Origin: Trichococcus shcherbakoviae
GTDB taxonomy: Bacteria > Bacillota > Bacilli > Lactobacillales > Aerococcaceae
Length of the DNA: 64,000 bases
Direction: 5' to 3'
Assembly (NCBI RefSeq): GCF_963666195.1
Contig: NZ_OY762653.1
Span: 620,001-684,000 of the forward strand
In this document: in pieces, positions 37,781 to 60,154 of the stretch
Numbering within the stretch: position 1 is the stretch's first letter
Layout: every line of letters starts with the position of its first letter
Program-made: the position numbers and the translations under genes
The notes under the pieces: generated by a model
The model's input: the letters and a program-made list of their open reading frames with translations, nothing else
Database searches by the model: none
Told to the model about the DNA's origin: nothing

Positions 37781-37916
37781 CTCTTATTGCTCATAGGACT
37801 TGGATAATCCTACGCTCAGGTTGGGCACCCAATATCAATCTGTACTGAAAAAAAATTAGATTGATTGGTTTGCCACCGTATCTTCGACCCCTCGTCTCAA
37901 CGGCTATTAATAAGAG
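37781..37916 (-). promoter_or_regulatory. Riboswitch-like structured leader of speA-speB, class not recognised
   Basis: In minus-strand order: P1 CTCTTATT (37916-37909) with AATAAGAG (37788-37781), 8 perfect pairs. P2 is CCGT/ACGG (37903-37900 with 37879-37876) with inner GAC/GTC. P3 is TGCC..., that is GGCA (37874-37871) with TGCC (37827-37824), stacked on CCAAT-CAATCT (37868-37858) with AGATTG-AT-ATTGG (37841-37829). P4 is TAGGA/TCCTA (37812-37808 with 37798-37794). The layout, and the GGCAAACC...GGGTGCC strands of P3, recall the SAM-I clan. The canonical GUGGAGGGA and UGAAACC blocks are missing. A terminator follows 24 bases later, as in transcription-control riboswitches. Confidence 0.65.
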
Positions 37917-52169: not shown

Positions 52170-53195
52170 TTATTCAGCCAATTCCACAAACACCGCATCG
52201 GCTTTGACGTCTTCCGGAATCGTCAAGCCCAGTTCGTCCACTTTGGCTTGGTTGATGTAAACGGAATTCTCTTTGACCAGTTGGACCGGATAAGTCGCCG
52301 GGTCAGCGCCTTTCAGGATGTCGACCGCGATTTGGCCGATCTGGGTGCCCATGCCGTATTGGCTTGGCGCGAAAGTCGCAACACCGCCGTCTTTCACCAT
52401 CGTATCAGCTGCCGGGAAAACCGGGATGCCGAACGCATCGGCCGCATCCACCAAGGTTGCCATCCCGCTCGCGATGACATTGTCATTCGGTACGTAGATT
52501 GCGTCCACTTCTTTAGCCAGACTTTCCGCCGCTTGGGCGATGTCGTTCGAAGTAGTGATCGTTCTCGTGACGACATCGAAGCCTAAATCTGCTGCCGCTT
52601 GCTCAGCGCGTTGGCCGGAGATGATCGCATTGTCTTCGGCAGTCGTGTACATGACACCGATTGTTGTGGCATCCGGCAGGAATTGCTTGATCAAAGCCAT
52701 CTGCTCGTTCGAAGGTGTCCGGTTCGACAGCCCCGTTGCATTGCTGCCGGGAATTTCCAAGGATTCAACCAGTCCAGCGCCGACTGGATCCTGGACCGCG
52801 CCAAGGATCACCGGAATCTCATCTGAGGCATTCTTCAGCGCTTGCGCGGCTGGCGTCGCGACGCCGATCATGATGTCTGCGTCATGGCTGACGAAGCTTT
52901 CGGCGATCGATTTCATGTTCGCCTGGTCCCCTTGCGCATTCTGGAAATCGATGGTGGCATTCTCGCCGTCGACATAGCCGGCCGCCGCCAACTCATCCAG
53001 GATGCCTTCCGTGATCTGATCCAAGGCTGGATGCGTCGTCAACTGCAGGATGCCGATATAAACCTGTTCCTGTTCGCTTTCATTTGTAGCCGCAGAAGAA
53101 TCATTTTCCGACGCTGTGTTTCCGCAAGCAGCCAACAACCCGATCGCCACTACCGAGCTCAATCGCAACATATTTTTCATCCCATTTTTCATCAT
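52170..53195 (-). CDS. ABC transporter substrate-binding lipoprotein (TrpX/ABC_sub_bind family)
   Basis: 341 residues from ATG 53195 (GGAGG 7 bases upstream). A lipoprotein signal (VVAIGLLAACGNTASE; lipobox LAAC) precedes a bilobal ABC_sub_bind domain: YIGILQLTTHPALDQITEGI, VGVATPAAQALKN, PVILGAVQDPVGAGLV, GLSNRTPSNEQ, YVPNDNVIASGM and PVFPAADTMVKDGG. This is the TrpX/YtrF-like family; the streptococcal member was linked to tryptophan uptake, others to unknown solutes. Unlike trpXYZ operons, no permease or ATPase gene follows; it ends in its own terminator. The leader carries an attenuator with a small peptide containing one tryptophan. Confidence 0.88.
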   Translation of the reverse strand: MMKNGMKNMLRLSSVVAIGLLAACGNTASENDSSAATNESEQEQVYIGILQLTTHPALDQITEGILDELAAAGYVDGENATIDFQNAQGDQANMKSIAESFVSHDADIMIGVATPAAQALKNASDEIPVILGAVQDPVGAGLVESLEIPGSNATGLSNRTPSNEQMALIKQFLPDATTIGVMYTTAEDNAIISGQRAEQAAADLGFDVVTRTITTSNDIAQAAESLAKEVDAIYVPNDNVIASGMATLVDAADAFGIPVFPAADTMVKDGGVATFAPSQYGMGTQIGQIAVDILKGADPATYPVQLVKENSVYINQAKVDELGLTIPEDVKADAVFVELAE

Positions 53196-53266
53196 CCATA
53201 TTCCTCCATTTTTATATTTTCTTTTTCTGCACATCATAATCCGGATAAAAAAGCGTTTTTGGATAC

Positions 53267-53301
53267 AAAAAAACCGCAGAGACCCTGATAGTCTTTGCGG
53301 T
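53267..53301 (-). terminator. Leader terminator (segments 3 and 4 of the attenuator)
   Basis: On the minus strand ACCGCA (53301-53296) pairs with TGCGGT (53278-53273) and AGAC with GTCT inside, followed by TTTTTTT; about 70 bases before the binding-protein start codon. Confidence 0.88.
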
Positions 53302-53335
53302 GATGGTTTCCTGAATAAGTAAAAGAAGGAAAAAT

Positions 53336-53415
53336 CCGCATAGACGCTAATCCAGATTAAATCTGAGGTTGCATCTATGGACAGTCCTGTCACACGATCA
53401 ACCTACACTATGCGG
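53336..53415 (-). promoter_or_regulatory. Attenuator leader structure (segments 1 and 2) ahead of the TrpX-type gene
   Basis: On the minus strand segment 1 CCGCATAG (53415-53408) pairs perfectly with segment 2 CTATGCGG (53343-53336). Between them GGTTG/CAACC (53403-53399 with 53371-53367) encloses GACAG/CTGTC, and CAGAT/ATCTG forms a further hairpin. Segment 2 can instead pair through TGCGG with CCGCA, the 5' arm of the terminator (segment 3). The 1:2, 2:3 and 3:4 pairings are mutually exclusive, as in classical amino acid operon attenuators. Segment 1 overlaps the last codons of a leader peptide. Confidence 0.75.
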
Positions 53416-53465
53416 CTTTGCCAGCTTTTTCCGTTCATTGCTGTAACACGCGTGATCGTTTGCAT
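53403..53465 (-). CDS. Leader peptide of the TrpX-type attenuator
   Basis: A 20-codon frame, MQTITRVTAMNGKSWQSRIV, too short for normal gene calls. It has a perfect GAGGAGG ribosome site (53479-53473) 7 bases before its ATG and lies about 20 bases downstream of a near-consensus promoter. The single tryptophan codon (53423-53421) is 5 bases before pairing segment 1. A ribosome stalled there would cover segment 1, allow the 2:3 antiterminator and switch on the transporter gene. One tryptophan codon is few compared with enterobacterial trp leaders, so arrest by another signal is possible. No T-box motif (TGGNACCGCG) is present. Confidence 0.7.
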   Translation of the reverse strand: MQTITRVTAMNGKSWQSRIV

Positions 53466-53494
53466 TCGACTGCCTCCTCTTCTTTTATGCATTC

Positions 53495-53523
53495 ATCATA
53501 ATCAAGAAACAAAAGTATGTCAA
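53495..53523 (-). promoter_or_regulatory. Promoter of the TrpX-type leader
   Basis: On the minus strand TTGACA (53523-53518), a 17-base spacer and TATGAT (53500-53495); predicted start near 53488, so the leader is about 290 bases. Confidence 0.82.
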
Positions 53524-59808: not shown

Positions 59809-60138
59809 GAATCGGACATACAGAACACATTCAGATCGATTGTTGTCCGATATCTCATATGAATCGGACATCCCGAACACGTCCAGATCCAAACTTGTCC
59901 GATAACCCGCATGAATCGGACATCCCGAACACGTCCAGATCCAAACTTGTCCGATAACCCGCATGAATCGGACATCCCGAACACGTCCAGATCCAAACTT
60001 GTCCGATAACCCGCATGAATCGGACATCCCGAACACGTCCAGATCCAAACTTGTCCGATAACCCGCATGAATCGGACATCCCGAACACGTCCAGATCTAA
60101 ACTTGTCCGATAACCCGCATGAATCGGACATCCCGAAC
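59809..60138. repeat. 52-bp tandem hairpin array, locus 2 (seven right arms, six complete dyads)
   Basis: GAATCGGACAT recurs at 59809, 59861, 59913, 59965, 60017, 60069 and 60121: an exact 52-base period. Complete dyads are TGTCCGAT-N11-ATCGGACA with loop AACCCGCATGA; the first unit is diverged. Linkers (CCCGAACACGTCCAGATCCA plus AACT) are nearly identical, which shows recent expansion. The dyad and period equal those of the array at 23440-23622, while the linker is different. Because 52 is not a multiple of three, long false frames appear on the minus strand with a repeating protein pattern. It lies between sdaAA and the terminator of ridA. Confidence 0.93.
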
Positions 60139-60154
60139 ACAGTCCTATCAAATA

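Follow-up and report, generated by a model that had tools for sequence, protein, structure and literature searches.

The leader of an orphan trpX-type gene in Trichococcus shcherbakoviae is, with a probability of about 0.88, a transcription attenuator read by the translating ribosome. It lies in a contiguous stretch of 64,000 nucleotides, hereafter called the window, and carries a short open reading frame (ORF) preceded by a Shine-Dalgarno (SD) site, predicted to be translated, with a control codon that matches the downstream gene. The element belongs to a large Bacillota group that includes the Rfam trpB motif (RF04312) and across which control codons for Trp, His, Leu or Phe/Tyr can replace one another. 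We consider it probable that RF04312 itself is not a riboswitch but a widespread modular leader-peptide attenuator of Bacillota, with control codons exchanged like cassettes to fit the gene that follows. It would be an analogue of the T-box that works through translation and is OFF by construction when its leader is not translated (pairing A:D around B:C, Table 1). A few dozen bases upstream of the motif would then turn an unsolved trpB motif candidate into a testable leader-peptide attenuator, and an open orphan-riboswitch candidate would be resolved as a modular attenuator family in which one RNA scaffold changes its amino-acid specificity. The class of mechanism is known; new are the identity with RF04312, the swapping of control codons and the logic of the six segments.

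The leader and its orphan trpX gene

A preliminary description of the window, made from its letters, had proposed a classical amino acid attenuator at this position, and the parts that it named are in place: a consensus promoter, a 20-codon frame behind a GAGGAGG site, a sole Trp codon 5 nt before CCGCATAG (segment A, its segment 1), and three pairings, 1:2, 2:3 and 3:4, among four segments corresponding to A, D, E and F. Pairing 2:3 is longer than had been stated, GTCTATGCGG:CCGCAAAGAC, with 9/10 positions matching; CTATGCGG lies within segment D at 53343-53336 (minus strand). The folding z of the leader is -3.2 relative to dinucleotide shuffles. Ribosome-mediated attenuation at the Trp codon, the core of that proposal, is supported and is the best reading of the leader. 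Its pairing scheme is incomplete, however, having missed C:D and B:C. The local hairpin C:D, spanning 53380-53336, competes for D and is broken by helix B:C. Because C:D also holds segment 2, freeing that segment from segment 1 is insufficient, and a stalled ribosome must leave segment B available to pair with C.

Table 1. Coordinates of the leader, its pairing segments and the downstream gene within the window.
Feature	Position	Strand	Remarks
Leader as a whole	53523-53267	minus	promoter, ORF, exclusive pairings, terminator, then the orphan trpX gene
Promoter TTGACA-17-TATGAT	53495..53523	minus	11/12 consensus positions; basis is the consensus match only
Leader ORF, MQTITRVTAMNGKSWQSRIV-stop	53403..53465	minus	20 codons; Shine-Dalgarno GAGGAGG upstream
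Trp control codon	53421..53423	minus	sole Trp of the leader ORF; read from sequence
Segment A, CCGCATAG	53408..53415	minus	pairs with D
Segment B, TAGGTTGATC	53396..53405	minus	stop codon inside; pairs with C, 6 bp in the window
Segment C, CCATAGATGCAACCT	53366..53380	minus	left arm of Rfam hairpin P1; pairs with B or D
Segment D, GTCTATGCGG	53336..53345	minus	segment 2 of the preliminary description; pairs with A, C or E
Segment E, ACCGCAAAGAC	53291..53301	minus	segment 3; terminator left arm (53301-53291), or antiterminator with D
Segment F and U-run, GTCTCTGCGGT + T7	53267..53283	minus	right arm (53283-53273) of the putative intrinsic terminator; seven T at 53273-53267
RF04312 (trpB motif) match	53262..53381	minus	43.3 bits, E 8.8e-5
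TrpX-type ABC substrate-binding lipoprotein gene	52170..53195	minus	NF041285 390 bits (cut-off 390); PF04392

T-boxes are common before such genes in Firmicutes, and a covariance search (RF00230) returned 26 T-box matches in this genome, which could suggest that the leader reads uncharged tRNA-Trp directly. None of the 26 lies at the leader, where the preliminary description had likewise seen no T-box motif, and we give a T-box next to no chance here.

The downstream gene, whose start codon we picked from a GGAGG site, has no adjoining permease or ATPase genes and matches TrpX families, in agreement with its earlier designation as an orphan TrpX-type binding protein. AzlC/AzlD-like genes are located upstream and a type 2 IPP isomerase gene downstream on the opposite strand. 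The closest solved structures by sequence are 3lft, 3lkv and 6hni. The protein shares 96-98% identity with its counterparts in named Trichococcus records and in a record that bears the title Sedimentibacter sp. SX930 (L049, L054). As in Trichococcus records, both trpX copies are present in the latter, one 98% and the other 60% identical to the window gene, and its title may be wrong.

Three TrpX homologues are found in the genome. The second copy (L002/L198) possesses its own W leader, MSAYTRVSKLNFFDWQSHVE, and an RF04312 match of 42.5 bits, and is followed by ORFs that resemble, by eye, a permease and an ATPase, forming a trpXYZ-like run. The third (G000:C1:745768-746646; L199 2245-3249, minus strand) lacks an RF04312 match. 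Upstream of it is a short SD-preceded ORF, MQPQTKVPQSHHQ, with a stop codon abutting a terminator-like hairpin, AAGCCCATTTGG...GAATGGGCTTTTT, possibly a different attenuator; the gene after this homologue resembles 2-isopropylmalate synthase.

RF04312 and the Trp leaders of Lactobacillales

An Rfam search of the window at the gathering threshold gave no match at the leader; RF04312 appears only at a relaxed threshold, its score falling below the gathering score of 59. The window nevertheless has the RF04312 arrangement of hairpin P1 followed by a terminator upstream of an amino-acid transporter gene. Its C:D hairpin and E:F terminator align over the full model (positions 1-107), and the gene classes associated with the motif, amino-acid ABC transporter and trpB, are the same. 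The model begins at C; A, B and the leader ORF lie outside it. According to the available portion of its 2024 publication, the trpB motif (SRC-39-1) ranks as a strong riboswitch candidate. Its more than 900 representatives come from Firmicutes and Fusobacteria and usually stand before an uncharacterised ABC transporter, sometimes before trpB; the authors did not exclude a classic attenuator (PMC11109978). A full-text literature search for 'trpB motif' returned this paper alone. Elsewhere in the window are a SAM riboswitch match (37781-37916, minus strand; 44.4 bits, exactly the gathering score) and, at 59809-60145 just downstream of a serine dehydratase-like gene, a 52-base unit repeated in tandem (6.5 copies, 95% matches).

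Of 76 genomes in the family of the window, 46 have RF04312 matches (E<=1e-3), as do 172 of 395 Lactobacillales genomes (E<=1e-4; 59/395 have a match above the cut-off) and 2 of 398 genomes of a phylum-wide sample. The preliminary description had regarded ribosome-mediated attenuation of this kind as unusual in Firmicutes. The Lactobacillales count does not bear this out, and the structured part of the element was already in Rfam; ribosome-mediated attenuation appears to be common in this order, where credit usually goes to T-boxes. Six weak matches in the genome of the window (L003-L008, E 0.12 to 1.35) were taken as chance and excluded from all counts; one of them, L007, has W ORFs and the other five have none.

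We examined 58 of the RF04312 matches found in Lactobacillales (L001, L002, L009-L037 and L129-L155), accepting as a leader any ORF that is 7-30 codons long, has an SD site before it and W close to its end, and stops no more than 40 nt from the motif. Such an ORF lies just upstream of the motif at all 58 loci. Over 50 trials with shuffled upstream sequence the mean was 0.84 and the maximum 3 of 58; when the test was shifted to five other positions, it gave 0 to 2 of 58. The genes behind these matches are TrpX-like in 47 cases by motif and in 5 more by eye, and trpB in 4, with L009, L018 and L136 confirmed by TIGR00263. At L129/L200 an ORF for a group II intron-type reverse transcriptase separates the attenuator from the TrpX-like ORF; this locus has the highest RF04312 score in the order. 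L132/L201, with a W leader and an RF04312 score of 70.6 bits, is not followed on the same strand by any ORF of 120 codons for about 4 kb and is perhaps an orphaned attenuator.

Among 80 named TrpX loci, 70 have an SD-preceded W leader within 700 bases upstream (a second candidate ORF at L028 was set aside), while none was found by the criteria used at the other 10. The string WQS occurs in 48 of the 70 leaders. In a set of 113 distinct leaders selected for W, and hence with W in 113/113, a single Trp is present in 63. The codon after W is CAA in 101/113 and never CAG, and the second codon after W is AGC/AGT or AAC/AAT in 98/113 and never TCN. Because of this codon use, the WQS signature follows RNA pairing and not the peptide.

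The same observation bears on an arrest peptide. In TnaC, the nascent chain mediates ribosome stalling by free Trp, and a single conserved Trp, with Gln-Ser or Gln-Asn after it in most leaders, could be read in that way. The residues preceding W vary freely, however, the codon constraint after it points to RNA pairing, and Trp is swapped for His, Leu or Phe/Tyr along with gene function (see below). Stalling at high Trp would also be expected to induce an uptake gene, the wrong direction. Arrest of the TnaC type is extremely unlikely on this evidence, and stalling at a control codon for want of charged tRNA is the reading that we follow.

Co-evolving segments and a predicted three-state switch

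For a total of 88 loci, sequences were cut into A (ORF end), B (stop codon to motif), C and D (P1 arms) and E and F (terminator arms); for L031, whose own fold has no P1, the position of D was taken from L002. The duplex energies of cognate segments were compared with those of partners swapped between loci, using 40 non-redundant loci and 5000 permutations, and pairing and covariation were counted with custom scripts. Cognate partners have an advantage for A:D (z -8.2), B:C (z -12.4) and D:E (z -5.2) as well as for C:D (z -9.8) and E:F (z -15.1), where scores are biased because those segments were chosen by folding (all p<=0.0002). The advantage is weak for A:C (z -3.2, p 0.0014) and A:F (z -2.4, p 0.011), and the remaining eight segment pairs are not significant among the 40 loci. 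The outcome for D:E is sensitive to the limits chosen for E, since a first pass with cruder segments gave only z -2.5 for this pair; B:D stood at z -5.9 in that pass because B overlapped A, and the segments were redefined afterwards. The five-pairing pattern recurs within Lactobacillales (25 of 58 loci) and within a second family described below (15 of 30), where D:E is weak (p 0.023).

Compensating change in helix B:C was followed column by column. One position in its fixed columns has GC in 27, TA in 10, TG in 5, CG in 4 and AT in 3 of 52 distinct pairs, and non-anchor columns are paired in 0.827 of cells versus 0.657 after permutation (maximum 0.712); L013, L018 and L129, which have no TTG anchor, were left out of this count. 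Judged from aligned segments, the predicted terminator and antiterminator are mutually exclusive and are kept so through compensating change. The preliminary description had named conservation across relatives as one check of its proposal. In the relatives compared, the ORF, the Trp codon and the pairings recur and the partners co-evolve; neither loss of the peptide frame nor uncompensated breakage of the pairings was found.

These segments lead to a proposed switch with three states. When Trp-tRNA is scarce, the ribosome would wait at the Trp codon and cover A; free B would pair with C, so that D could pair with E, the E:F terminator would be blocked and trpX would be transcribed (ON). When Trp is plentiful, the ribosome would reach the stop codon and cover B, allowing C:D to form and E:F to terminate transcription (OFF). 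In an untranslated leader, D would be taken up either in A:D, which encloses B:C, or in C:D, and E:F would again terminate (OFF).

Folding predictions were made for transcripts ended before F, assuming a ribosome footprint of 13 nt downstream of the A site. The predicted probability of D:E, averaged over 40 loci, is 0.51 with the ribosome at the control codon, 0.11 with the ribosome at the stop codon and 0.12 without a ribosome; the corresponding values for the window are 0.79, 0.33 and 0.06. The stalled state has the highest D:E probability in 33/40 loci and not in the other 7/40. Before E is made, C:D (0.46) and B:C (0.42) are about balanced in this state. Ribosome-free transcripts folded from upstream of the ORF favor C:D (0.56) over A:D (0.15), as does the window (0.73 over 0.05), whereas those folded from the control codon favor A:D (0.62) over C:D (0.12), in 34/40 loci. 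The two folds disagree on the partner of D because the folded stretch starts at different points, and D is sequestered either way. We infer stalling, termination, anti-termination and a response to tryptophan at this leader.

An attenuator by ancestry could have decayed at the orphan copy of trpX. The gene is an orphan paralogue, the second copy with its own W leader heads the trpXYZ-like run, and A:D and D:E in the window each contain single mismatches. Decay is nonetheless highly improbable, given that frame, Trp codon and pairings are maintained in the named Trichococcus loci (L049-L053) and that the window itself yields the expected three-state prediction. A functional attenuator at the orphan gene is the preferred reading.

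The trp and his attenuators of E. coli combine a leader ORF with control codons, mutually exclusive hairpins and an intrinsic terminator. All three features are shared by the leaders described here, as is the alternative chain of the his attenuator, B:C + D:E versus C:D + E:F, outlined in the available portion of PMC9413887. In contrast to the E. coli systems, D in the ribosome-free leader may be held by A (A:D around B:C) instead of A pairing with B, the sequence is unrelated and there is often a single control codon.

Control codons in a second family

Through a match in the phylum-wide sample (L156) we reached a distant family in which 25 of 116 genomes have RF04312 matches (E<=1e-3), none above the cut-off; its order has matches in 31 of 225 genomes (E<=1e-4). 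The first 30 loci of this second family (L156-L185) have leaders in which Trp is replaced, for example MINIVVMKSKVEFHHHR, MNAFNIKLINFIHHHH, MNIKINMFISKLNNLLLLANLR and MNYINNSNIKTEIFFNSHFR; the leader of L181 was missed by the SD list used and was read by eye. Among loci fetched after the idea of a codon swap had formed, such leaders are present in 12/12 and 10/12. The matches L207 and L212 (E 1.9e-4 and 8.4e-4) have no leader, look like plain chance hairpins and are outside the resulting set of 52 loci with leaders.

Gene classes were assigned by motifs scored anywhere in the oriented locus (for L210 by motif only). His-run leaders account for 8/52 and all 8 precede hisS or hisZ, as do 0/44 of the other leader loci. 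Two of the eight, L163 and L174, were missed by the his-gene motif and are both hisS by NCBIfam, while L157 is a hisZ below its NCBIfam cut-off (218 of 272 bits). Leu-run leaders account for another 8/52, all 8 of which stand before NSS transporters of a single clade (Fisher p 1.3e-9, compared with p 1.4e-6 for the 6/8 his genes found by motif alone, both values overstating independence because the loci are related). The remaining 36/52 have Phe/Tyr codons, a loose class for which an F or Y anywhere among the final 12 residues sufficed and which includes leaders with isolated Phe codons (L158, L180, L184, L209, L211); they precede other NSS transporters (22), BrnQ (6) and TrpX/TrpY-type ABC genes (8). 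Switching of the control codon with the downstream gene argues for amino-acid-specific ribosome stalling.

This variation also weighs on the riboswitch interpretation, in which the RNA itself would bind an amino acid or related ligand and the ORF would be incidental. The published standing of the trpB motif as a strong candidate favors it, in a paper whose available portion left a classic attenuator possible (PMC11109978). A leader ORF at 58/58 loci, control codons that vary with the gene while the RNA stays constant, and a translation-dependent switch that accounts for both hairpins of the motif all speak against it, and we regard a riboswitch as very unlikely. If RF04312 is instead a leader-peptide attenuator, leader codons would predict the signal for each of its copies and therefore also the substrates of poorly assigned transporters (NSS, BrnQ, TrpX-type).

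Leader-peptide attenuation before his genes has been described in other Firmicutes, with His leader peptides before Bacillus hisS*/hisZ (PMC2965389) and his attenuators in C. difficile relatives and others (PMC9413887); the available portions of both papers link them neither with RF04312 nor with versions for Trp, Leu or Phe/Tyr. A Leu-rich attenuator peptide of branched-chain genes in Staphylococcus aureus, seen in the available portion of PMC5794164, is likewise a Firmicutes case using Leu codons. Listings and the opening parts of abstracts contained no report of a Trp leader peptide or attenuator for Lactobacillales. The trpB motif as an attenuator, switching among four codon classes on one scaffold and the A-F network were not found in the literature searched.

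Proteins encoded behind the second-family leaders differ along with the control codons. One NSS protein of the Phe/Tyr clade has 4us3, which we take to be MhsT, as its best solved match, and the Leu clade matches LeuT and animal transporters. All eight TrpX/TrpY-type ABC genes of this family (L161, L171, L175, L180, L184, L209, L211 and L213) have Phe and not Trp leaders, which suggests, as far as leader codons can indicate a substrate, that they transport phenylalanine and not tryptophan, contrary to the TrpX annotation.
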